Shown here: positions 19,205 to 61,200 of the stretch, in pieces
Layout of the letters: the number at the start of each line of letters is the position of its first letter
How positions within the stretch are numbered: position 1 is the stretch's first letter
From: Brachycybe producta
Taxonomy: Eukaryota; Arthropoda; Diplopoda; Playtdesmida; Andrognathidae
Length of the DNA: 64,000 nucleotides
Assembly (NCBI GenBank): GCA_036925085.1
Contig: JAUPFP010000025.1
Location: 2,709,733-2,773,732, forward strand
Reading direction: 5' to 3'
Translations under genes and position numbers: made by a program
The notes under the pieces: generated by a model
Databases searched by the model: none
What the model saw: the letters and a program-made list of their open reading frames with translations, nothing else
Told to the model about the DNA's origin: nothing

Positions 19205-19690
19205 ATAGGTGGCTCACTACAGTTAGAAGTGTCTCACTACAGTTAGAGGTGGCTCACTACAGTCAGAGGTGGCTCACTACAGTCAGAGGTGGCTCACTAC
19301 AGTCAGAGGTGGCTCACTACAGTCAGAGGTGGCTCACTACAGTCAGAGGTGGCTCACTACAGTCAGAGGTGGCTCACTACAGTCAGAGGTGGCTCACTAC
19401 AGTCAGAGGTGGCTCACTACAGTCAGAGGTGGCTCACTACAGTCAGAGGTGGCTCACTACAGTCAGAGGTGGCTCACTACAGTCAGAGGTGGCTCACTAC
19501 AGTCAGAGGTGGCTCACTACAGTCAGAGGTGGCTCACTACAGTCAGAGGTGGCTCACTACAGTCAGAGGTGGCTCACTACAGTCAGAGGTGGCTCACTAC
19601 AGTCAGAGGTGGCTCACTACAGTCAGAGGTGTCTCACTACAGTTAGAGGTGTCTCACTACAGTTAGAGGTGTCTCACTACAGTTAGAGGT
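19205..19690. repeat. 20-bp satellite, about 24 copies
   Basis: The unit is GGTGGCTCACTACAGTCAGA. The central copies are essentially identical. The outer copies carry GTCTCACTACAGTTAGA variants at both edges, the usual pattern of recent central homogenisation. It is stop-free in all forward frames and gives the same 20-residue peptide in each, so the open frames are artefacts. Confidence 0.95.
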
Positions 19691-20792
19691 GGCGCACTTA
19701 AAAATTAAAGGTTACTTGTAAAAATTTAAAAAATAACATGCTTATTACCAATATTAAAACTTTAAAAGTGGCTCACTATAAGTTCAAAATATGGCTCGCT
19801 TAATTGAAAGTGCTGATCCAGAAACTTGAAAAGCAGCTCCGTTCAATTTAGAAAGAGTCCATTAAGTTTTGAAGGGACTTCCGTTAGAATTCAAAGTGAC
19901 GCAAACTGCTTTAAAGTGACCCAAGTTTTAGATCATGATCTTTTAAAACACTGTCTATATTTCAATGGTGGTCTTTTGTGTTAAGAAAGGATTCAAAGCC
20001 AAAGACTATGACACGCATAACGTCACACATTCTGATCTCTATACGTGTCTACTTCCAAAACCCCCATTCCCTTCAGAGTTAAAGGGGTCCTCCTCCTCCT
20101 CCCCATTCCTCCCTCCCTCCTCCCAATCCCCTCGTTCCGATCGATGAGGTTGTCTTTTTTAGTGCAGCCTATATAAACCAACTACTACTACTACTACTAT
20201 TTTGGTTACCATGGTAACGTGCCCTACTATGCAATGAATGGAGTTCAAAATGTGGCAAGAAAGAAAAATTCGTCAGAGTGAAGAAGAAAATGAATAACAA
20301 GAGTCACTTGAGTGAGGCTTGGGTTTAAAAAAAAAACCATACAAACAGAATGGGAACCTCATTCCTGAACCCAACGCCCCCCCCCTCACTCTTCACCCCC
20401 ACCTCAAAAAAAAAACGAGAGTTCGGTTCTTGAATCTAATTTCAGAACGCATCCTTTTAAAGGGAAGAAGAAGAAGAAAAAACCCATACAATTATATTGC
20501 AATTGAACTTTCAATTATAAATTCAAGCATTCGTATAAATAAGTTAAACAACAAACAGATCAATAAACCGAAAAGAAGAAAACGGAAATGTCTTGTTTTT
20601 TTTTGTTCTTTACTTTGTTTGGCTAATCTCAGAATAGCCTCCTCCTCATCCTCCTCACAGTGGTCAGTAACATTAAACGCATGATTACACGCCTGGGTCT
20701 CACGCGCATGAAAAAAGCAGAAAATAGAAATAGGAAGAAAAAAAAAATTACTTTTCTGCTTTCCTTCGCGTTCATGTTTATAGAACTAGAAG
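19691..20792. other. Spacer with a possible promoter-like patch
   Basis: 19691-19930 continues the decayed GTGGCTCACT repeats. 20085-20140 is CT-rich. A TATATAAAC box lies at 20169-20177 and a perfect GTTACC/GGTAAC palindrome at 20205-20218. No convincing exon follows, only poly-A and GAAGAA runs. Confidence 0.35.
20205..20218. promoter_or_regulatory. Perfect RFX-type X-box palindrome
   Basis: GTTACCATGGTAAC is an exact inverted repeat fitting the RFX-factor X-box (GTNRCC then RGYAAC). It sits about 30 bp downstream of a TATA-like box. A related ACCATGGTAACC lies near 56133. Function is untested and no gene is attached. Confidence 0.4.
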
Positions 20793-23905: not shown

Positions 23906-23922
23906 AAGTATCCTATAAAGTG

Positions 23923-24611
23923 TGTGAGCTTTTGACATCAACCAATATTTTATTACCAACCTTTAGATGACATTTTCTACTTTTCGTTTCTTCTCTGAGC
24001 AGTATGACACCTGCACAGAGAAGATCCGAGCTGTAGAGAGAGCTGGATGGAGATAGATTGAAGTCACTCTTCTGCATGGGGGTGAAATCAATGCAGGAGA
24101 GTGGCGGCCATCTCTCTCTCTTCCGGTTGATGCTGATATACATCTTCTCCATCGGTATTCCGACTAGAGAAGATGTTGTAGCTGCTGAGAATCGTATAGC
24201 TCCTGCCCTATGAAACCTCCGGCCTCTGAAGAGAAGTTATTAGTATAAAGACATAGAGACAACGCTACTTCTTATTACAACACTTTTATTCATTCCTTGT
24301 AAGAAGTACAGATACAAGGGTGAATAGTAAAATACTAACTGGAAATCCTCAGGCCCATTGATTTGGAATGTATCGCAAAAACAGGCAAAGGAAAGAACTG
24401 AGGAACAAAGAGGAACATGGTCCTTTTATACCTTGGACCTGTGTACACCTGCGAGGTGTAACCAGGTCCAAGTGACCATGGTCCTTTACGTATCAATCCG
24501 CCACTTGGGCATGAGTCAGAAAGGTGAGTCAGAGAGGAGGGAGGGACGGTTGAGAGTTGTTTACCCCCCAGGCTATGGTTTTGGCGGGATCACGATTTAC
24601 AGGGTGTTACA
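23923..24611 (-). repeat. 3' LTR (element orientation)
   Basis: 689 bp. In the minus direction it carries a TATAAAAG box (24424-24431) and an AATAAA signal (24285-24290), spaced as in a working U3-R-U5. It differs from the other LTR by T instead of C on the + strand at 24244. Confidence 0.95.
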
Positions 24612-24612
24612 T

Positions 24613-24654
24613 ACCCTCCAACTTTGCTTGGAGTACGTCCTCGTACTCCAGCCA
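24613..24654 (-). promoter_or_regulatory. Polypurine tract and adjacent hairpin
   Basis: In element orientation GGAGGGTA abuts the 3' LTR and fits a short polypurine tract for plus-strand priming. Just upstream, TGGAGTACG and CGTACTCCA (24629-24650) form a perfect 9-bp stem with a 4-nt loop. Confidence 0.6.
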
Positions 24655-25011
24655 AGGGTGGAAGGTTTTCAAGTTACGCAGCGGGGAGACATGGGTGGCT
24701 GAGGACTTACCGTGTACAGAGGTGGTTATGGAAAGGCACTGGCACCGAAGTGTCAGCGCCCTTAAAAATTGGAAAAGGCTGAAAACATAAAACAAAGATA
24801 ATTAATGCTCGCTGAGTGGCGAGCCGCTATTGAAATCTAAAAAGAAAAGAACAGTTGCAACGTATTTTATTTTTTTATAAATTTTTCGATAATGCCACCC
24901 GGATGGGTGGCAACCACATGAGTACATGTGGCGCGCAGCTATCCCTGCTGCGGAGGGTGGGGAGGATCCTGGGTCCATGAACCGTACGGGGTAATCCCGC
25001 CGGACCTGGCC

Positions 25012-27189
25012 TCATCGGTAGCTGGATGCGGCAGACAGCCATTGTCCCTGGTCGTCAGGTAGATCCCGGTGGAAGATATTGAAGATGTCCCGGTCCCCGA
25101 TAATCTTGCGGGAGGACCGCTTGTTGTACAGTGTAGCCCAAGCGGCGTCCCACAAGACGGCGATTCGGTAACGAGGATCCGGTTCCGGAATGTAGTGACG
25201 GCTGGTACGGAACGTCTGTCCAGCTGGCAGTCTAAAGACGGAGTTGACGAAAGCTCCCAAAAGGGCTTCCGTGGCTTCATCGATGGCATCTCCGGCGAAA
25301 CTGGTGGTTTCAACAATCCGTCTTCTTGGGAAGACGATGGTGATGAGGACACTTGTTAGGCGGGAGAGTCCCACGACATATCGCTCCCGGGGAGGGAGGT
25401 CCAGACGGGGAAACCCTTCCTCCAAAGAGAAGTGTCCTATGTAAAGGGTGTTGGCAGAGCGCACTTCGCGCTGCCAAGTGACCCACCGATTGTTGAGCAA
25501 TCTCTCGCCGGAGGTGGCTGCACGGAACGGATGATCCAGCGGTAACCGCCCCAGAGTAGCCCCGGCATGGGGTACAGTGGGCGGTGCGGCTGGTCGGGCT
25601 GGTGTTGGAGCCGCAGGTTCCAAAGAAACTGATGCGCCCGTGATAGGCCTGGCATGGCGCAAGGCGGACCGGGCCATATCGCGGGCCCGCTGACGTAGTC
25701 GCTTCGATGCCGACTTCCTGCTCAGCGCCTCCAGTGGCTTGGCACTTCCTGGTGCATGGCCCAGTGCTTCCATGGGGTCACCTCCCTGTCGCATGACGTC
25801 TTGCAGAAGGTTTGTGATGGCCTTCTGTTTTTTCAAGAACGCGGCACGCTCTGCGGAAGGTGGCGGCATCAAAGGTGTGGGCGTAGGTTGTCCAGAAGGG
25901 CGGCCCGGAGGTGGCGGAGGAGGAGAGCGATGCGGGACCCGAGTAGGAGGGCCCCGAGTTTCGTAGCGATGGTCGCGGTCCAGTTGGACTCGGTGATCCT
26001 GTAGGTCTTGCCTGACCCTTGGGTCGAAGTTATTACGCGGCGGAGGGCCGCGTCCAGAGGAACCACGTTGTTCCTGCTGACTTCTTCCGTCGGGTCGGCG
26101 TCGGGGCGAAAGATGGGAACCACGTGGCGAAGAGCGACGTGGTTGTGGCCGTTGAAGAGAGTCTCGAGAAGAGTGGTGGCCCCTGTAGGACTGTTGAGGC
26201 TCCTTGGGGCGAGCCCCAGTGGGAACCTGAACACGAACAGGTTGGGGAACCACCACTATGGAAGGTAGCTTTGGAGTCGGAGTTGGTGTGGCGGCCTCGC
26301 TGCGTGGAGGCGTGGCACATCGGGAGGTTGGTGGTGACGATAATGGTGTATGAGGAGGAGGCGGCGGAGTGATTGACGGCACCGGTGAGCAGTGTTGGAA
26401 AGGCTCTGGTGGCGTTATGGGTGGAGAAGGAGGTGTGGAGAGGCCAGTTGTCAGGGTTGCTGGCGAGTTTGAGGATGGAGGTGATGACGTGGCCGATGAC
26501 GTAACTTGGGCGGCTTCTTGGAGTCGGGCCTCGATTTGCAGGAGCTCCTCCTTCGGGAGTTGCGCCGTACACGGTAAGCCCAGCTCGACAAGGCGGGCGC
26601 AAACCGCACGGAGGTACGCCAGATTGTCCTCCCCTTCCTTTTTATCTCTGGCTGCCTGGCGAAGGGCAGCCTCCCTCTGCATCTCCAAGTGGAGGTCTTC
26701 GAGGGGGGAGGGCACAGATCCACCTCCCCCACGCTTCCCTCTTGCTTCAGCTCCACCCGGAATGGGTTGACCAGGCGCGATGCTATCGCGGAACGCCTGG
26801 TTAACCCCCCATGCCATTGTATTAATATCGATGCGGTCTTCCCGCTCCTCCCAGTAGTGTTTTGATGTCGTGACGTCGAAGGGGACGATGCTGCTTGGAG
26901 CAGCAGGCTTCCCTTCGCGCCCGACATTGGCAGGTCGCTTGAAGCTTGCTTTTAGGCGCTTCTCCCCACGCCGGTGAAAATTCTCCGGTTCGGAGGAGGT
27001 GCGGCGCCTATCTATTGTGTTTGGCGACTCTCTTCTTGTTATTGGCGCACTGGCGGCGCCCGCCCTTTGTAGCTGGCAGGTAGATTGAGAGAGGGGTTCA
27101 GCGGTCCCCGCCGTTCCACTCTCCGTCTCATCTTCACTAGAAGAGGCAGACATCATTCTGCCTCCTCTCCATGAGCCTCTACCTGGCAT
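25012..27189 (-). CDS. Uncharacterised 725-aa ORF2 of the LTR retrotransposon
   Basis: I do not recognise this protein. Residues 1-100 are basic and Ser/Arg-rich. Residues 100-150 contain a short ordered-looking stretch (KHYWEERED, MAWGVNQAFRDS). Residues 160-228 look helical and charged. Residues 235-445 are strongly Pro/Ser/Arg-rich and surely disordered. Residues 446-515 look helical and basic. Residues about 550-725 look like a compact globular domain with hydrophobic strands (RYVVGLSRLTSVLITIVF) and conserved-looking aromatic residues. There is no signal peptide, transmembrane helix, zinc knuckle, YXDD box or DDE-like pattern, so it is neither a typical env nor a pol fragment. The long intact frame and much higher GC than the flanks argue for selection or a recent origin. 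Ideas without proof are a nucleic-acid-binding accessory protein, a second structural protein or a captured host gene. Confidence 0.85.
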   Translation of the reverse strand: MPGRGSWRGGRMMSASSSEDETESGTAGTAEPLSQSTCQLQRAGAASAPITRRESPNTIDRRRTSSEPENFHRRGEKRLKASFKRPANVGREGKPAAPSSIVPFDVTTSKHYWEEREDRIDINTMAWGVNQAFRDSIAPGQPIPGGAEARGKRGGGGSVPSPLEDLHLEMQREAALRQAARDKKEGEDNLAYLRAVCARLVELGLPCTAQLPKEELLQIEARLQEAAQVTSSATSSPPSSNSPATLTTGLSTPPSPPITPPEPFQHCSPVPSITPPPPPHTPLSSPPTSRCATPPRSEAATPTPTPKLPSIVVVPQPVRVQVPTGARPKEPQQSYRGHHSSRDSLQRPQPRRSSPRGSHLSPRRRPDGRSQQEQRGSSGRGPPPRNNFDPRVRQDLQDHRVQLDRDHRYETRGPPTRVPHRSPPPPPPGRPSGQPTPTPLMPPPSAERAAFLKKQKAITNLLQDVMRQGGDPMEALGHAPGSAKPLEALSRKSASKRLRQRARDMARSALRHARPITGASVSLEPAAPTPARPAAPPTVPHAGATLGRLPLDHPFRAATSGERLLNNRWVTWQREVRSANTLYIGHFSLEEGFPRLDLPPRERYVVGLSRLTSVLITIVFPRRRIVETTSFAGDAIDEATEALLGAFVNSVFRLPAGQTFRTSRHYIPEPDPRYRIAVLWDAAWATLYNKRSSRKIIGDRDIFNIFHRDLPDDQGQWLSAASSYR

Positions 27190-28685
27190 ATTTCTTAAGA
27201 GTTAGAAAGTTCTTACTTTTTCAAAAGTCCCGCTGCTGGTGGTTACTTCCAAATAATAACAGAAATCGGTCCCCGATCACTCTGTTATTATTTCAAGAGG
27301 TCCAAAGAGTTCTGAAGGCCTGATGCACTGCACGTGAGTTCAAAGGCTTGAAGGTGGTACTCAAGCTTTGGATTGACAACAAAACTGAAGAAGTTCGAAA
27401 TTAAAATTTGGAACTTGGCACAGAAGTAGATTGAAGATTTGATGATTGAAGAAGATCGAGCATAAAGAGATGAACAAAAACGAGTGCTTCTTTGAAGAGA
27501 GCAAATCGAGTGGTAATTGACCAAGTTTGGTCACTCTCTTATTTAATTTTAAAAGTTAGAAGGGCCGGCCCCTTTTAGAATAAGACACCTTACTCTAATT
27601 GGTTTCTTCACGACTTTATTTATTGGGGGTGGGGGTTGTCCCACCGATATTAGATGTGAGAGGTGTTGATCTAATTCTTATCAGAGTCGGTCCTGTTTAT
27701 TATTTTTAGATAAACAAAAGGACTAAGGAATCTCGAGGGGGAAGGGCCGTTATTTTATTTCACACCGAGGTGTGAAGTTGCCCATTAACTTTCTCCCCTT
27801 CTTTTCCTTAATGCCTTTTTTCTTTTTTGGAAAGAATAGGTCAGCAAGGTTACTAATGTACCTTGCTGTTTGTTATTATTTTTAGGGGGGAGTGGGGCAG
27901 GAGTTGGTGTCCCACAATTCGATCTTAATTGAGAGGGTGACAGGTTCTTCAATTTTATTTTTTAATTGAAGGTGTCCGCTCTCACAAAATCTTCAAAACT
28001 GATTTTCTTCCTTTTTTTATTTGTTTATGGCCAGCAGTTTTTGTTGTTCGTTTTTTTCTTTGAAGTCCCAGTGCATTGGTCTGGCCCCCAGAGCAATTGT
28101 CTCTTTGAAGTTTCTATCCTTCTACTGTCAACAGCATGGTCAATGACGTTCGTCCATAATAAAGGGGAGCACGGTGTTTTTCTTTTGCTGACCCTTTTAT
28201 GGCTCTTGATTTTTCTTCTGAACGTCCTTGACTAGCCTTCGGCGTTTTTCCCAGGTGTACCACGTGGTTGACAGTTGTTTGTGAAGGCCACGTGGTTCCG
28301 GTGTAGTTTATTGCATGTTTGAAATGGTTGCCAATATGTAAATATTGGCGGCCATGTTGAAAAGTTTAGAAGTGTTTCAAAAATTAAAGTTGTGTGAATT
28401 TTGTAGAGTTTTGGGAGTTATTTGAGAGTGTTTAGAGGGGTTGTTGATGCTGTGGGGTTGTTTATTCGTTGGGGGGTTCCTTTTATCCCCTCCCCCACCT
28501 CTTGACAACTGTCCTCAGTTGTTTCTTAACACAACAATTCTCAAATTCCTCCCGCTCTTCTATTGTTGATATTTGATGGTTGCTGGTGTTTATTTCCATG
28601 GTCATGAAATAAACACTGGTGAATTATTGTTTTATTTTCGTCGCGTTTGGTTTCTTGACAGCGTGGGTGGCCGTTGCTTTCGTCG
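27190..28685 (-). other. Gap between gag-protease and ORF2, where pol would be expected
   Basis: About 1.5 kb, AT-rich, with no RT, RNase H or integrase motif in any frame. In element direction it ends with a pyrimidine-containing CTTTCTAACTCTTAAG just before the ORF2 ATG, a possible splice acceptor that would allow a spliced ORF2 message. It may be the scar of a pol deletion or a regulatory spacer. Confidence 0.6.
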
Positions 28686-31067
28686 TCACTTACGGGGTGG
28701 AGTTTCGAGGTTTTCCTTAGAGGTGCTGGCAGATTTGCCAGGGGCCTCTACGGAAGTTTCTCCCAGAGCCCATCCGATGTGTGCTTCAATGCATTTTTGT
28801 CGGAGTGTGGATTCGAAGAGATCGTCCTCCACGTATACTTTGTTTGTTGTCATGGACACAGCTAAGTGCAGAGCCCGGCCTAGATCTCGGCCTAAGATGG
28901 CTTCGTGCCGGCCGGTAATCACTAGTAAGTGCCCTCGCACAGCGTGGGGGCCTAGCTGGACCGTCGCGGCGAGTCGCCCCACCACGGTGATCCTTTGGCC
29001 TCCCACACCCTGAATGTTGGGTGGGATTAACACAGGCTCGATTTCGAACTTGTGTTCCTGCGCGAGTTCAATGGTGATAACGCTGCCCGTAGCTCCGGTG
29101 TCCGCGAGCATCCGTATACTCTTTCCGTTGATCGTGACGGCGATGCGCGGGTTCTTGTCGCTGGCATCATAGTCTCCGACTTCTTGAGGTGAACAGCTGC
29201 TTACCAGCTGCTCATACACCGTTGTCATTAGTCTTCGGCAGCAGGAGTGGCCCTTCGTCGGCGATTGGGTTCCGGGAGCCATGATGGCTATTGTTTTATT
29301 TTCACGGCACCCAATCTCCTTGACGGATTGTTTAAGGACGTCGAGCGTGTCCTGCCAAACGATTAGATCGTCCGGGGTCCATTTATGTGCAGGAGCCCGG
29401 TCGAGCACCTTGACTGGTATATCCTCAGAGTCGTCAGAACTGTCGTTGTCGGGTTTATCAGGAGTAGGCGCTCCGGCGGCTGAGTCTGCTGCTGGAAGAG
29501 GAATCCGGCGGATTTGTCCCGCCACTCTTATTAGAGCAAACTCAACGCCGTCTTCGGTGATGATATCCGTTTCAGGCACCTCTCCTTTGATGTCATAGTC
29601 GGTAACCGGCTCTCCAAACTGCTTGATTGCAACCTTCTTCTTTGGTTGCCGACACTCACGGACGAAATGCCCCAATTTGCCACAATTATAACACGTCGAC
29701 TTACTCTTGTCGAACGTGCGAGTGGTCTCTGGTTGGGTGTCCGCTGCAGAGTGTCGGTTTGAATTGGTGGCAGCAGTCTGACTAGGCTTTTTATCATGCC
29801 TAGACCGGTGTGTTTTGTCTTTAGGGCTGGCGGCTGCCGCCGGCTCCTGGTCGGTCTTCGATGCTCCTTTACCCGACTGTGAATCAGCTGCGGGTTTTGG
29901 TTCCGTCGGCCATTTATCCAAGGACAGCAAGACCACCTCCATATTGAGGACGGCGTTTGCGAAGTCCTTGAACGACGTCGTAGATGCGTGGTGCGCGGCA
30001 TTCTGTATGGTGGGATGTAGAGCGCGGCGCAACTGGCTTATACGCAGCTGATCGTCAAGTTGCGGGTAAACTCGGTCGCCGAGTATCATAAACTCCCAGA
30101 TGAAAGCTTGTGTACTCTCACCTTCCTTCTGGAGCATCTCTGTATACTTTTTCTCCAAGATGGCCAGTTCGTTCGGCTTTCCGAACGTATCTACCATCTG
30201 TACTCTCAGTGCTGGCCAAGGAATGTCCTGAAGCTCATACCTCAGTTTACTCAGCCACGTACGGGCGGCCCCAGTGAAACACCCCGTGATGTATTCCTCC
30301 TTGTGGTGGTCTTTCCAACCGTACAGGTGTGCCACTTCCTCGAATTCTTCCAGGAAGGGACGAAAACCTGTCAATCCGTTGAATTTTTGGATTGAGTCGG
30401 CTGGGTGGCGACCGCTGTATTTCTTATTGAATTCTTCCACGGAGGGTTCTCTGGGGGTTGGTCGATAGATGCCATCCTGGACGTTTGACATTCCAGCCGG
30501 CATCAGACCTACCCCTTGAGGTGGAAAACGTGGCGCGTAAACTGAAGTGCCTTGTGTCGCTCCTTGGCTAGGCTGTTGTTCCGGGGGTGTCGAGCGGCGA
30601 CCGCTACGTGCAACCCGGACAAGCGAGTGAGGAGAATCAGCACGTGTCGTGATCGGTATTTCCGCACGCTCATCTCTGTGACGCGGATCATCTGACTGCC
30701 CTTGTTGTTGCCAGTCAGGGTTACGCGGTAGATGACGTGTGTGCGGTGTGTAATGTCTTTCGTAACGATCGTGACGCTCTCTGTAGCCAACATAGGGGGC
30801 TGAAGAGGCGTCCGAGTCATCGTCGCGAAGTCGGTGTGTGCGTGTTGTCCGCCGTGGTGTAGTCGGTCGATTCGGCGTGAATCGGTCGTCTATGAACTGA
30901 GACATACGAGTCGAGAGTGCAGCCACTTGTTGTGACAGGTGGTCAAACTCGGCCCCAGTCGGCCGCGGCGGTGGTGTCACATCAGTAGTCACGGGTACTT
31001 CCAACAGATCTTCGTGCGAACCCTGGTGATCAGACAGGGACCCCGTATTGTCGTGTGAGGTAGCCAT
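28686..31067 (-). CDS. gag-PR: Gag-protease polyprotein of the LTR retrotransposon
   Basis: 793 aa with an intact frame. Residues 1-200 are polar and Arg/Pro-rich. Residues about 215-385 match a retrotransposon Gag capsid domain (FLEEFEEVAHLYGW, ARTWLSKLRYEL, MVDTFGKPNE, then FIWEFMILGDRVYP). A CCHC zinc knuckle lies at C459-C462-H467-C472 in the pattern CX2CX4HX4C. An aspartic protease follows, with the active-site LADTGATGSV at 654-663 and the HEAILGRDLG flap-distal motif at 721-730. Gag builds the particle and packages RNA through the zinc knuckle; the protease cleaves Gag. In autonomous gypsy elements the frame would run on, or shift, into RT, but here it stops at about residue 793. ATG at 31067 is the first in frame after the leader. 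Confidence 0.92.
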   Translation of the reverse strand: MATSHDNTGSLSDHQGSHEDLLEVPVTTDVTPPPRPTGAEFDHLSQQVAALSTRMSQFIDDRFTPNRPTTPRRTTRTHRLRDDDSDASSAPYVGYRERHDRYERHYTPHTRHLPRNPDWQQQGQSDDPRHRDERAEIPITTRADSPHSLVRVARSGRRSTPPEQQPSQGATQGTSVYAPRFPPQGVGLMPAGMSNVQDGIYRPTPREPSVEEFNKKYSGRHPADSIQKFNGLTGFRPFLEEFEEVAHLYGWKDHHKEEYITGCFTGAARTWLSKLRYELQDIPWPALRVQMVDTFGKPNELAILEKKYTEMLQKEGESTQAFIWEFMILGDRVYPQLDDQLRISQLRRALHPTIQNAAHHASTTSFKDFANAVLNMEVVLLSLDKWPTEPKPAADSQSGKGASKTDQEPAAAASPKDKTHRSRHDKKPSQTAATNSNRHSAADTQPETTRTFDKSKSTCYNCGKLGHFVRECRQPKKKVAIKQFGEPVTDYDIKGEVPETDIITEDGVEFALIRVAGQIRRIPLPAADSAAGAPTPDKPDNDSSDDSEDIPVKVLDRAPAHKWTPDDLIVWQDTLDVLKQSVKEIGCRENKTIAIMAPGTQSPTKGHSCCRRLMTTVYEQLVSSCSPQEVGDYDASDKNPRIAVTINGKSIRMLADTGATGSVITIELAQEHKFEIEPVLIPPNIQGVGGQRITVVGRLAATVQLGPHAVRGHLLVITGRHEAILGRDLGRALHLAVSMTTNKVYVEDDLFESTLRQKCIEAHIGWALGETSVEAPGKSASTSKENLETPPRK

Positions 31068-33483
31068 GATTAATGAAGTGGCTTGTGTAATGTGAATGTG
31101 CGGTGATGAACGAGTCCGGCGAAGTCCAAGTCGTTGTGTGCAGCTCCGAGGGTTCTCGAGTACACTCTGAGCTATACTTTTCGGTTCCAGTATGATGGGA
31201 CTCGTTCAGTTTGTAGGTCGGTGTCGTCACTGTGCGTCGGTAACTTAGTGCTTGTCGGCAACCGACACTATCGTACTCTTATACACTGAGTAACGATAGA
31301 TTACCTAAGCTTGTGACGTGTATAACGAAGTGGCCGTTCACTCCGTTAGTGTGGTGATGGTTGTGTCGGGTTGATCGTGTTCTCAGTTGGGCGTGTGATG
31401 AGTTTTGGTTCCCAACTGGTGTGGCGTCGTGAGTTCTTTATTGAGCGTCAGATTTTGGAAGGATCTCTCTCGACACGTGGTATTTGGCGACCACGTGGAG
31501 GTTACGAGAATTCCAAAAACCTCAATAAAGAAACAGCAGATGTACAATACAACCTCGAGCGTGGTACACCACCCAATCAAGATTGCACTGCGGAAAGTGA
31601 ATTAGAAATGAAAGTGTATTGCAATTGCCTGAAGAAGAGGAAAGCAATACGAAGAGTAAAGCTAGAGCGCGGTGCCCGCACTTTTAGTTTTACTTAGAAA
31701 CAAGAATGAAGAGTGTGTGTGTGAAGAACACACAAAGAACAAAAAGTTCAAGATGGCTGAACTTTTTAAATGCACAAACAAAGGAGAAGTTCAAGATGGC
31801 TGAACTCTCCAAAGAAGCAAGAAAAGAAAGCTGTTTTACTTTGAAAGTTTAAAACTTAGGTGCGGTGCCCGCACATCAAAAGTTTCAATTTAGTTTTATT
31901 AAAACAGTAAAACAGTGTAGAAATTGAAGTGTGTTCAACAAGATAAATACTTGGTGAACCAGAAGAAATGTTCAGACTGGAGAAATTTTGAGTCCTCACT
32001 GCTGGATGGCTCTGGATGAAAAGACAGAGTCAGTGCCCAGTGAGGGACTATGTTGAGTAGAAGGAAGAGGTCCGTAGGTGGCGCTGAGGTGGCCACTTCC
32101 GGTTCAGTTTATTGCAATGTCCAAAAATTGATGATTGAAAAGTTCCTCCGGGGCACGTTTTTATGGTGGCCAGGAGAAAGACACAAAAAGAGAGAAAATT
32201 CAAAGAAAAAGAGAAGTTTTCTCTAACAAGAGGAACTCCGCCAGGGGGCGCGTGAGTGCAACCCTCTGGAAGAGAAGAGAAGAGAAGAGAACACAAAAAG
32301 ATGAGAGAAGGTACAACAATGAGTCACATGGAGCGAAAAACCGCTCCGTTGGCGCTTTTTGAAGTGTCCGGTCGATCCAAGATGGCGGCCGGGCTTCAGT
32401 GCTGTCCAATGGAGAAAGTTCATGTGATGATGCATTGAGGTGATGATGATGAAGAAATTGAAGAACATGACTTGGGACATAGAGGGTCCCAAGGGAAACA
32501 CAAGTGTAAAAACAAAGAACAAAGAAAAGGGGGGACAAGAAAGTCCCACGTGGCTAGAAAAAGTGTGTTTTAAGCTTGTAAGCCCCCTAACAATGAGATA
32601 GAGTTAGGGAGAATCTTGCTTGAAAATTAAAGATGAAGAGTGAAGATAATAGGACATTTTAAAAGACACACACGTCCTTTAAAAGCCTATTAATAGATGA
32701 ATAGATTAGTAGATGAGATTTGTTTGCTCATCTCATAATGAGACTGCAAACTCCTCTCGGAGAGTAAGAAGAATTTGTTTAAAGTGTTGCCCACGTGGTG
32801 TGGGTTTCACTTTGAAAATTAAAGAAGAGTGAAGGTGACAGTGGGTGATTGTAATGGAAACATGAAATACAAAAACACGGACGGAAACACGTGTGTCCAA
32901 ACGGTTGTCCACTTTCCGAGTGCTAAGCGGTCAGCAGATAAAAGTTCGTTCCCACGTGTCTCTAAGGACAGGACACAGAATCGCGCGGTCGACACGTGGT
33001 GTGTGTAGCCACAAGTCTCTTTCGCGATTCCACAAAAACGGTACCATGCGGTTGGCTTTGACGTGATCGAGGGCCTCCATACATGGTCCCAACATAAAAA
33101 GGCGCCACGCGGTTGGCTTTGACGCTATCGAGGGCCTCCATACGTGGTTCCAACACAAAGGACGCCGCGCGGTTGGCTTTGACGTGATCGAGGGCCTCCA
33201 TACGCGGTTTTACAAAGGCGCCACGTGGTCGACTTTGACGCTATCGAGGGTCTCCACACGTGGTTCCAACACAAAGGACGCCGCGCGGTTGACTTTGACG
33301 TGATCGAGGGTCTCCATACGCGGTTTTACAGACAGGCGCCACGCGGTTGACTTTGACGCTATCGAGGGTCTCCATACGTGGCTCCAACATAGAAAGGACG
33401 GACGAAGCCTCGTGAGGCACAATCACGAGACTTAGGACAAAGGACGGCTTCTGTTTACAGGTCGGAGAAGGCAGATGGAGCTA
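31068..33483 (-). other. Long 5' leader of the retrotransposon
   Basis: About 2.4 kb between the primer-binding site and the gag ATG. It contains short upstream frames (for example 31230-31030, overlapping the gag start in another frame) and the ~60-bp tandem repeats. No conserved domain is seen. Leaders this long usually hold packaging and translation-control signals, which is inference here. Confidence 0.6.
33041..33398. repeat. Six tandem ~60-bp units in the retrotransposon leader
   Basis: Each unit has GCGCCACGCGGTTGGC, TTTGACG(C/T)TATCGAGGG and CTCCATACGTGGTTCC. Two alternating subtypes (ending CCAACACAAAG or TTTTACAAAG) suggest a 120-bp higher-order unit. The CACGYGG motifs at both ends of each unit are near-palindromic. 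Open frames through it are by-products. Confidence 0.85.
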
Positions 33484-33501
33484 TGCCCAGCTCCTCCACC
33501 A
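33484..33501 (-). promoter_or_regulatory. Primer-binding site, probably for tRNA-Ala
   Basis: Two bases inside the 5' LTR, in element orientation, the sequence is TGGTGGAGGAGCTGGGCA. From memory it matches the complement of a tRNA-Ala 3' end (TGGTGGAGGTGCTGGGGA) at 16 of 18 positions. The following GGAGCT/AGCTCC can form a small hairpin. Confidence 0.6.
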
Positions 33502-33503
33502 AA

Positions 33504-34192
33504 TGTGAGCTTTTGACATCAACCAATATTTTATTACCAACCTTTAGATGACATTTTCTACTTTTCGTTTCTTCTCTGAGCAGTATGACACCTGCACAGA
33601 GAAGATCCGAGCTGTAGAGAGAGCTGGATGGAGATAGATTGAAGTCACTCTTCTGCATGGGGGTGAAATCAATGCAGGAGAGTGGCGGCCATCTCTCTCT
33701 CTTCCGGTTGATGCTGATATACATCTTCTCCATCGGTATTCCGACTAGAGAAGATGTTGTAGCTGCTGAGAATCGTATAGCTCCTGCCCTATGAAACCTC
33801 CGGCCTCTGAAGAGAAGTTATTAGCATAAAGACATAGAGACAACGCTACTTCTTATTACAACACTTTTATTCATTCCTTGTAAGAAGTACAGATACAAGG
33901 GTGAATAGTAAAATACTAACTGGAAATCCTCAGGCCCATTGATTTGGAATGTATCGCAAAAACAGGCAAAGGAAAGAACTGAGGAACAAAGAGGAACATG
34001 GTCCTTTTATACCTTGGACCTGTGTACACCTGCGAGGTGTAACCAGGTCCAAGTGACCATGGTCCTTTACGTATCAATCCGCCACTTGGGCATGAGTCAG
34101 AAAGGTGAGTCAGAGAGGAGGGAGGGACGGTTGAGAGTTGTTTACCCCCCAGGCTATGGTTTTGGCGGGATCACGATTTACAGGGTGTTACA
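33504..34192 (-). repeat. 5' LTR (element orientation)
   Basis: 689 bp. TATAAAAG at 34005-34012 (minus) would start transcription near 33980, and AATAAA lies at 33866-33871. It is identical to the 3' LTR except at 33825. Confidence 0.95.
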
Positions 34193-35008
34193 AGTGGGTT
34201 CAACAAATTTGCCTGTAGTAAATGCGCGACCCCCTAAACCCTAAATTAATTCTTCATTATTATCGATATATCGTGAGTTTTTGTTAAGTTTCATTTTGCA
34301 TAGTAACAATGAATAAATAAAGATATTCTTTTTCTCGATGACGGAATTATAAAAAAAAAACTTATCTCAAAGTACATATAACCAACGCCCCCCCCCCCCC
34401 CCCCAAAAAAAAATATTCTATTTTTCGTTATTTATATCAAATGTAGTTTTTTTTATTAAGACTGACTAGATGATAATATTTATAAAAATACGAATTTTTC
34501 TATTTGTCATGAAAACGAAAAAAAGGCAACGAACAATAAAAGATATTTGAATTGATTTCGTTACAATGCCAACAAAATCAGAGAGACTGAAAGAAAGAAA
34601 GAAAAGTGATTGAGAAAGAAAAGAGTGATTGAGAGAGAGAGAGAGAGATAGGGAGGGGAGAGAGAGAAAAAAGAGAGAAAGAGAAAAAAAAAAGAGAAAA
34701 AAAAGAGCGAGAAAGAGAGAGAGGGAGAGATAGAAAGGGAAGAGAGAGAGGAAGAGAATGAGAGACTGCGAACGAAAAAAAGACAAGAAAAAAAGAATGA
34801 GAGAAAGAGACATATATTACATTATTGGATTTTCGCTTCTTTATTCTGACGTCATTGCGTTTAATTCAAAATTGGCAAACTGCCAAAATAAATGATTATC
34901 ATTGATATTATTATATAAAAAGCTGAAAGGAGATATTTTCGAAGAGGGCAAAAGAGGACATATTTCAACACCTTTTTTGTAATAATAATAATAAGAAATA
35001 TGCATAAA
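34193..35008. other. Spacer with a GA-rich microsatellite
   Basis: A poly-C run lies at 34388-34404. A purine-rich GAGA/GAAAGA tract fills 34580-34810; the 115-aa Leu/Ser frame on the minus strand is its artefact. The rest is AT-rich with no gene. Confidence 0.5.
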
Positions 35009-49160: not shown

Positions 49161-49710
49161 CACCTACCATCAGTCAACAGATAACTAAGATAACAGACTA
49201 GAACAGAACAACGAACCGAACACCGTTCGCAAACAGTTTGGACGGTTTTTAAGAACATTCTCTGTAACAAATTTCGTTCGGCCCCGTGATCCATCAGTTG
49301 TCGGGTTTTTGTCTGTGCCATCAAGAGATGTTGTTGTAACACCCAATATTGCCGGAGCCCCTGAGAATGCTAGCCTGGGGAGTGCATGACTCTCTGCCAT
49401 CCTCCCTCTCTTTGTGTACGAACTTGTTTCGGAATGCAGAGGGGATATCCCTTGGGACGCGGTCGCTTGGACCTGGTTACACCTCGTAAGTTTACACAGC
49501 TTCAAGCACCGTGCACCGCTTTGTTCTTCGACCATTCGCTTTCTCAAACTTGTTCACGTTTTTTTCTTCTTCTGGGAACATGTTCGCAAACATGTTCTGT
49601 TCATGTTTTGACACTCTGGCCACGGCGACCAGAATAACGACTTGTTCTTTTGGAAATGAGAGCGAACATGGTCTGTTTAGTGTTCTGTTCTAGTCTGGAC
49701 CAACCCTAAG
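49161..49710. repeat. Family Q repeat (GAACATGTTC-rich) interrupted by an LTR fragment
   Basis: AGACTAGAACAGAACAACGA at the left is complemented by GTTCTGTTCTAGTCTGGAC at the right. GGGAACATGTTCGCAAACAT is inside. Another copy lies at 54720-54860. An LTR-like fragment fills 49335-49510. Confidence 0.6.
49335..49510 (+). repeat. Diverged LTR fragment related to the 10-kb retrotransposon
   Basis: In the + direction it starts TGTAACACCC like the LTR and shares TAGCCTGGGG, CCTCCCTC and, most clearly, CTTGGACCTGGTTACACCTC (20 bases identical) in the same order. It ends before the TATA region. No partner LTR or internal sequence lies nearby, so it is an old solo or truncated LTR of a sister family. 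Confidence 0.8.
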
Positions 49711-60109: not shown

Positions 60110-60730
60110 ATGAATAACAGATAAAACTTCAGGAAAAGAGCGAAAACTAGATGATAAGAGCTAAACATTCAAAACAAGAGCTCAATTATATAAGAGCTAA
60201 AACTAGATGACAAGAGCGAAAACTAGATGACAAAAGCTAAAACTAGATGACAAAAGCTAAAACTAGATGACAAGAGCGAAAACTAGATGACAAGAGCGAA
60301 AACTAGATGACAAGAGCGAAAACTAGATGACAAGAGCGAAAACTAGATGACAAAAGCTAAAACTAGATGACACAAGCTAAAACTAGATGACAAGAGCTAA
60401 AACTAGATGACAAGAGCTAAAACTAGATGACAAGAGCGAAAACTAGATGACAAGAGCGAAAACTAGATGACAAGAGCGAAAACTAGATGACAAGAGCGAA
60501 AACTAGATGACAAGAGCGAAAACTAGATGACAAAAGCGAAAACTAGATGACAAGAGCGAAAACTAGACGACAAGAGCTAAAACTAGACGACAAGAGCTAA
60601 AACTAGACGACAAGAGCTAAAACTAGATGACAAGAGCTAAAACTAGATGACAAGAGCGAAAACTAGATGACAAGAGCTAAAACTAGATGACAAGAGCTAA
60701 TTAAGATAACAAAAGCTAAACTAAATGACA
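60110..60730. repeat. 20-bp satellite, about 26 copies
   Basis: The unit is AAAACTAGATGACAAGAGCG, with T replacing the last G and AAAGCT variants in blocks. It is the clean core of the wider GAGCTAAA repeat zone (60090-61400). Confidence 0.95.
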
Positions 60731-61200
60731 AGTGTTAAACGCTAGATCCAGAGCTGAACTTCAAAATATGAACTAAACTTGATGATGAGAGCTAAACATT
60801 CAGAACAAGAGCTCGATTATATAAAAGCTAAAACTGCAGCACAAAAGCTAAATTTCAGGACAAGAACTAAAACTAGATGACAAAAGCTAAATTAAATTAC
60901 AAAAGCTAATTAAGATAAGAAAAGCTAAACTAAACAAACTAAGCTTGTTTGCATTAAACACGCAAACAAGAGCTAAAAAGAGGATACTATCCTAAACCAA
61001 AGCTAAGCTTGTTTGCATTAAACAAGCGAACAAGAGCTAAAAAGAGGATACACTATCCTAAACCAAAGCTAAGCTTGTTTGCATTAAACAAGCAAACAAG
61101 AGCTAAAAAGAGGATACAATATCCTAAACCAAAGCTAAGCTTGTTTGCATTAAACAAGCGAACAAGAGCTAAAACAGATGACAACATCTAAACTTGAAGA
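60731..61200. repeat. 66-bp tandem repeat within the GAGCTAAA zone
   Basis: Three and a half units of AAGCTAAGCTTGTTTGCATT then AAACAAGCGAACAAGAGC and AAAGAGGATAC between 60940 and 61170. Each has an AAGCTTGTTTGC / GCAAACAAG inverted repeat. A 60-aa frame across it is an artefact. Confidence 0.88.

Follow-up and report, generated by a model that had tools for sequence, protein, structure and literature searches.

We identified a young Ty3/Gypsy-type long terminal repeat (LTR) retrotransposon in a 64,000-nucleotide stretch of the Brachycybe producta genome (assembly GCA_036925085.1, contig JAUPFP010000025.1, positions 2,709,733 to 2,773,732; hereafter the window). The element, at window positions 23923-34192, encodes a predicted capsid (CA), nucleocapsid (NC) and protease and lacks the polymerase (pol) genes, and a second type of element in the same genome carries pol and lacks CA. 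Given the comparisons presented below, we consider it probable that the window element is one half of an old, recently active two-component (bipartite) LTR retrotransposon. With less assurance, we also favour the stronger proposal of an obligate, long-lived bipartite pair, in which capsid and pol sit on separate elements with shared ends, have been apart since a deep divergence, and would move only together. Comparison of copies across the 295-Mb genome (442 contigs), which were read as samples, shows that the two types have reciprocal gene content and shared ends, that each is present in many near-identical copies, that their split is old, and that they are under purifying selection.

The capsid-coding type and its missing pol

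The element was assigned to Gypsy by similarity searches, and has the hallmarks of Ty3/Gypsy elements: paired LTRs, a primer-binding site (PBS), a short target-site duplication and a Gag protein with CA and a zinc knuckle. It lies on the minus strand, an orientation left unstated in a preliminary description made from the sequence alone, and its 5' LTR is therefore at 33504-34192 (reading TGTAACACCC...GCTCACA) and its 3' LTR at 23923-24611. The LTRs, of 689 bp each, are identical at 688 of 689 positions, with the sole mismatch at LTR position 368, and AGTG flanks the element at 23919-23922 and 34193-34196. The one-base LTR difference and the intact AGTG duplication given in that description are thus both seen and, with the open reading frames (ORFs) described below, agree with its view that the element is young. 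A likely PBS (TGGTGGAGG...) is found at 33490-33501 on the minus strand and may fit tRNA-Ala. The LTR end together with the PBS has 503 genome sites when up to 3 mismatches are allowed, and its control has none. The window variant of the PBS is exact in 5 of these 503 sites, and most listed sites have GGTGCGGGGT there. The leader (31206-33503, minus strand) contains a tandem array at 33044-33389, with units of 60 bp and 116 bp, which is matched in the leader of the pol-bearing type too.

Two long ORFs are encoded on the minus strand. ORF1 (28686-31205; 839 amino acids between stops, with the first ATG at 31067) has Pfam matches to Retrotrans_gag (CA; residues 306-397, 30015-30290), to a zf-CCHC zinc knuckle (residues 504-520, 29646-29696) and to an Asp_protease_2/RVP aspartic protease (residues 688-774, 28884-29144), in keeping with the gag-protease coding proposed earlier. 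ORF2 (25012-27201; 729 amino acids, first ATG at 27189) is proline-rich. It has no Pfam match above cut-off, none in PHROGs or PDB, and no IMG/VR relative, and single-sequence prediction for its C-terminal part gave no usable fold (mean pLDDT 41). Both frames are open, as had been reported, with no stop in 31205-28686 or in 27201-25012.

The expected place of pol is a gap (27202-28685, minus strand) without pol similarity. A six-frame search of 24612-33503 with a 28-row profile made from this genome's Gypsy pol (best control E=1e-141) gave nothing better than E=2.1, and a tblastn search of the gap with pol pieces gave nothing better than E=0.05. These results bear out the description of the element as pol-less, with no reverse transcriptase (RT), RNase H or integrase, and, together with the Pfam searches, rule out a pol hidden inside the interval. 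The preliminary description had allowed that pol might have been lost by this copy only; we find instead that sister copies carry the same gap in the place of pol. Eight copies read around gag-protease (L001-L008) hold it at 93-99.7% identity, although in L005 and L006 it is broken into two pieces and slightly rearranged, and the protease-to-gap junction has 221 exact genome sites. The same gap and junction in many copies rule out a deletion private to the window copy.

With a 1-kb gag-protease query we obtained 660 first-look candidates, of which 40 were scored and are all listed at 100% identity, and a CA probe has 348 genome sites (control, 0). All 54 copies scored with the ORF1 protein are stop-free, with frames of 839 or 846 amino acids and none longer, and all 61 scored with the ORF2 protein are stop-free as well; the scored copies are the best-scoring ones and therefore a biased sample. 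We also observed a capsid-only subtype (L079, L085 and L091) in which the linker end and the protease are gone (window 28673-29367), with common breakpoints; the protease-deleted junction has 76 exact genome sites. This third subtype appears to have already shed its protease.

The pol-bearing, capsid-less partner

A genome search for copies with and without pol found both types, and the pol-bearing type has no capsid domain. One partner copy (G000:C2:4175267 onward; pieces L059, L060, L057 and L061) has two LTRs that are 100% identical to each other and a target-site duplication ACTT. Its LTR is 99.3% identical to that of the window element (99.4-99.6% in an LTR identity matrix), and its leader is 94-96% identical to the window leader up to about window position 31254; the high identity ends some 50 bp upstream of the gag ORF and returns in the 3' untranslated region.

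In one frame, the partner has Pfam matches in the order PRO, RVT_1, RT_RNaseH, Integrase_H2C2 and rve, with no Retrotrans_gag or zf-CCHC match in Pfam and no CCHC motif in its ORF1. A CA-NC profile gave nothing better than E=1.2 on 15 pol-type pieces. As controls, this profile matches the complete outgroup element L063, which is one of its rows, and the gag-type L092, which is not; the piece L089, without a CA-NC match, begins in the protease, so that no CA is expected in it. The partner ORF1 aligns with the window ORF1 only over residues 582-825 (linker and protease), at 47-48% amino acid identity. Its post-integrase ORF, of 365 amino acids, has a C-terminal region in common with that of ORF2 (25027-25689, minus strand; 37.6% identity, E=2e-35), and ORF2 is in env position in both types.

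An RT probe has 167 genome sites (control, 0), and the CA-less junction of the partner has 90 exact sites. Nearly all scored pol copies are stop-free (66 of 67), and 57 of the 67 have frames of 1573-1597 amino acids, with none longer; the addition of CA and NC to such a frame would make it exceed 1597 amino acids. As the possible lenders of RT and integrase have themselves no capsid domain, borrowing is probably two-way. Ty3 encodes both Gag and Pol in one element. It is the best solved relative of the partner RT-RNase H-integrase (PDB 7q5b, E=4.5e-101), but is not split.

The partner might instead use the capsid of another Gypsy family, with the window type in turn borrowing the partner pol, in a chain of one-way parasites. 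Gypsy pol is plentiful in this genome (150 of 150 scored RT_RNaseH_2 matches are above cut-off), and borrowed capsids are the explanation offered for rice Tos17 in the available part of its description (PMC3977881). We consider such a chain improbable, however, since LTR, PBS and leader are common to the partner and the window type only, and none of 30 RT loci read resembles the window element at the DNA or protein level. Slightly less probable still is that the 280-residue N-terminal region of the partner is a capsid diverged beyond recognition, in which case the partner could move on its own and the window type would be no more than a common parasite of it. The window gag N-terminal probe does match an old pol-type copy (37% over about 65 residues, E=1e-4), but this match covers the region before CA, and the partner N-terminal region has neither a CA profile match nor a CCHC motif and is followed directly by linker and protease.

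Age, selection and the search for complete copies

The three old pol-type copies (L093+L044, L094+L081 and L095+L068) all pass from the N-terminal region straight to linker and protease, without CA, and the old gag-type copies (L075+L097, L098+L055 and L056+L099, the last by ORF2 and gap) have gag-type parts without pol. An assembly artefact, or a set of recent private deletions, is a most implausible source of the two types: we found nothing in its favour, and it is at odds with three separate junctions at 221, 76 and 90 exact copies, with the open frames and with the old copies, which have lost the same parts.

Purifying selection is seen on the capsid in the pol-less type and on pol in the CA-less type. 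The ratio of nonsynonymous to synonymous substitution rates (dN/dS) for CA lies within 0.12-0.15 (0.13, 0.15 and 0.12) in three comparisons, which involved L098, L075 and L073, and is 0.06 against L090 over just 35 codons. The protease gave 0.15, 0.17 and 0.10, and ORF2 0.19-0.42; in the partner, the values are 0.11-0.22 for RT, 0.07-0.10 for RNase H, 0.11-0.20 for integrase and 0.24 for ORF2. The dS of these comparisons ranges from 0.21 to 1.63, with the upper values near saturation, and the copies compared hold stops, which were skipped, so that some neutral decay is included. LARD elements have a long non-coding interior; the window element has instead two long open ORFs under purifying selection.

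Among six clearly assigned elements, the LTRs appear to group by age and not by coding type. A further gag-type LTR is 98.1-98.4% identical to both the window and the partner LTRs, and that of the old gag-type copy L056 is 80% identical to two old pol-type LTRs and 70% to young ones. Within the gap of the window element, 20 nt (28505-28524, minus strand) exactly match partner DNA directly after the integrase-coding region, and 24 of the 25 gag-type loci tested have the 16-nt core of this match. The match is likely the scar of a lost pol, which suggests that both types probably arose through reciprocal losses from one complete ancestor. Another stretch of the gap (27554-27804) is still about 81% like that of the window in the old gag-type copy L099, and is possibly a splice or RNA element.

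No complete copy of the window/partner family was found in our samples, which cover the 503 LTR/PBS sites in part. At 94 of these, the listed ones on contigs C1-C3, exact probes downstream found CA at 40, RT at 12, both at 0 and neither at 42; from the PBS, the distance is 3.7-5.0 kb at RT sites and 2.6-3.4 kb at CA sites. No listed RT site lies in the 15 kb downstream of any of the 100 listed CA sites (of 348), and these 100 comprise 67 with the protease-to-gap junction, 28 with the protease-deleted junction and 5 with neither. The CA-less junction precedes 76 of the 100 listed RT sites (of 167). The remaining 24 have no exact match; one of them, at C2:629705, is the old copy L081, without CA. 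Together, the CA and RT sites number 515, near the 503 LTR/PBS sites, with the probes not paired one to one.

We read 40 PBS sites in 2-kb or 2.5-kb pieces downstream, the first 20 pieces being 5-7 kb in, beyond CA. These sites are of the window (gag) type in 28 cases, of the pol type in 4 (L057, L077 and the older L044 and L081) and of neither in 8, and CA and RT of the window/partner family are together in none. Two of the 8 hold LTR or 3' parts only (L046 and L058), four are other elements (L043, L054, L076 and L082) and two hold nothing of the family (L045 and L047). The element at C1:6155634 (L054 and L062-L064) was rejected as a partner, as it matched the PBS probe but has an unlike LTR, and is treated as an outgroup; L043/L096, L076 and L082 were set aside as pieces of other elements. 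In L043 with L096 (G000:C19:2508233-2513600), the RT is 51% identical to that of the partner and an adjoining leader stretch is 79% window-like over 363 nt, perhaps through a nested insertion.

Several observations weigh against a two-component element. The exact probes left 42 of 94 PBS sites, 5 of 100 CA sites and 24 of 100 RT sites unplaced, among which a rare complete element could hide. The outgroup (G000:C1:6154300-6165500) is a distant complete Gypsy element with CA, knuckle, protease, RT, RNase H and integrase, its RT at 67% in amino acids over 206 residues, its CA at 28% and its LTR unlike. The gag N-terminal region has a dN/dS of 0.60 in one comparison, the LTR pattern by age comprises six elements only, and the partner copy read has a reading-frame change near the integrase end, with longer frames in most other copies.

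The unplaced sites and the complete relatives at a distance (L063/L054), along with an assembly in 442 contigs, would fit a scenario in which both types parasitise a third member of the family that has gag and pol together and is scarce in the assembly or absent from it. We regard such an element as unlikely. Both genes are together at none of the 94 probed PBS sites and none of the 40 read (20 of the latter read only beyond CA), no pol frame exceeds 1597 amino acids among 67 scored and no gag-protease frame exceeds 846 among 54, and purifying selection on the capsid of the pol-less type and on the pol of the CA-less type would be unneeded by mere parasites.

Elsewhere in the window, 46 bp at 49461-49506 are 87% LTR-like, and an ORF at 49188-49553 reads as LTR; this is probably an old LTR scrap. 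Two minisatellites with 20-bp units are found at 19207-19698 (24.6 copies, 98% alike) and 60136-60732 (30 copies, 90%). The window has no tRNA and no Rfam match.

A two-component model and known elements

The window and partner types have complementary gene content on shared ends, from which we infer mutual dependence, co-packaging, template switching and entry of the partner Pol into the particles. RNA of the window type would supply the capsid, nucleocapsid and protease of the particle, and partner RNA would supply protease, RT, RNase H and integrase, with no capsid. The shared leader may direct packaging of both RNAs and the shared PBS the copying of both, and a single integrase is predicted to accept the complementary DNA ends of both types. 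If RNAs packaged together undergo template switching, their ends would be kept alike, with the coding cassettes remaining separate.

We found no reciprocal gag/pol element pair in the open-licence PMC literature, and the cases found there, Tos17 and Athila, are one-way. As described in the available part of PMC3977881, Tos17 is an active LTR element of rice that has pol without gag and is thought to borrow the capsids of a complete element. The partner is likewise pol-bearing and gag-less, with CA and NC absent and recent copies, but is of Gypsy and not Copia type, and Tos17 has very few copies. The suspected lender of Tos17, Lullaby, is complete and, as far as that part of the text describes it, does not have the LTR integration signal of Tos17 in common with it (PMC3977881); here, in contrast, the capsid source itself has no pol, and the two types have almost identical LTRs. 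For Athila of Arabidopsis, the available part of PMC2410132 reports many elements without pol whose Gag and env-position ORFs are intact and show purifying selection, as well as recombination between families, and proposes cooperation. Every pol-bearing Athila described there also has gag, a one-way dependence (PMC2410132), whereas the pol-bearing type here has no CA or NC.

The TR-GAG elements of plants, in the descriptions available, are LTR elements with gag and no pol, and are nearest to the protease-less subtype found here. The window type is not gag only: it retains a protease and the large ORF2, and is matched by a reciprocal partner. In C. elegans, Cer1 is a Gypsy/Ty3 element with gag and pol in one element, unlike the pair described here; its env-position ORF, CERV, is without known homology in the part of the source available and is needed for export of genomic RNA (PMC10309623). 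ORF2 may serve genomic-RNA export like CERV, a likeness drawn from position and not from sequence comparison.

Non-autonomous LTR elements are usually viewed as parasites of complete ones. If the two-component reading is true, the genome of a retrotransposon can divide into two parts and endure, and the pair would be the retroelement counterpart of a multipartite virus. It would represent a division of labour among selfish genes, the evolution of which is testable within one genome, and it raises the question of how Pol enters the particle when it is not fused to Gag. Should there be no complete copy, these elements would constitute a new kind, beyond the known non-autonomous LTR elements.

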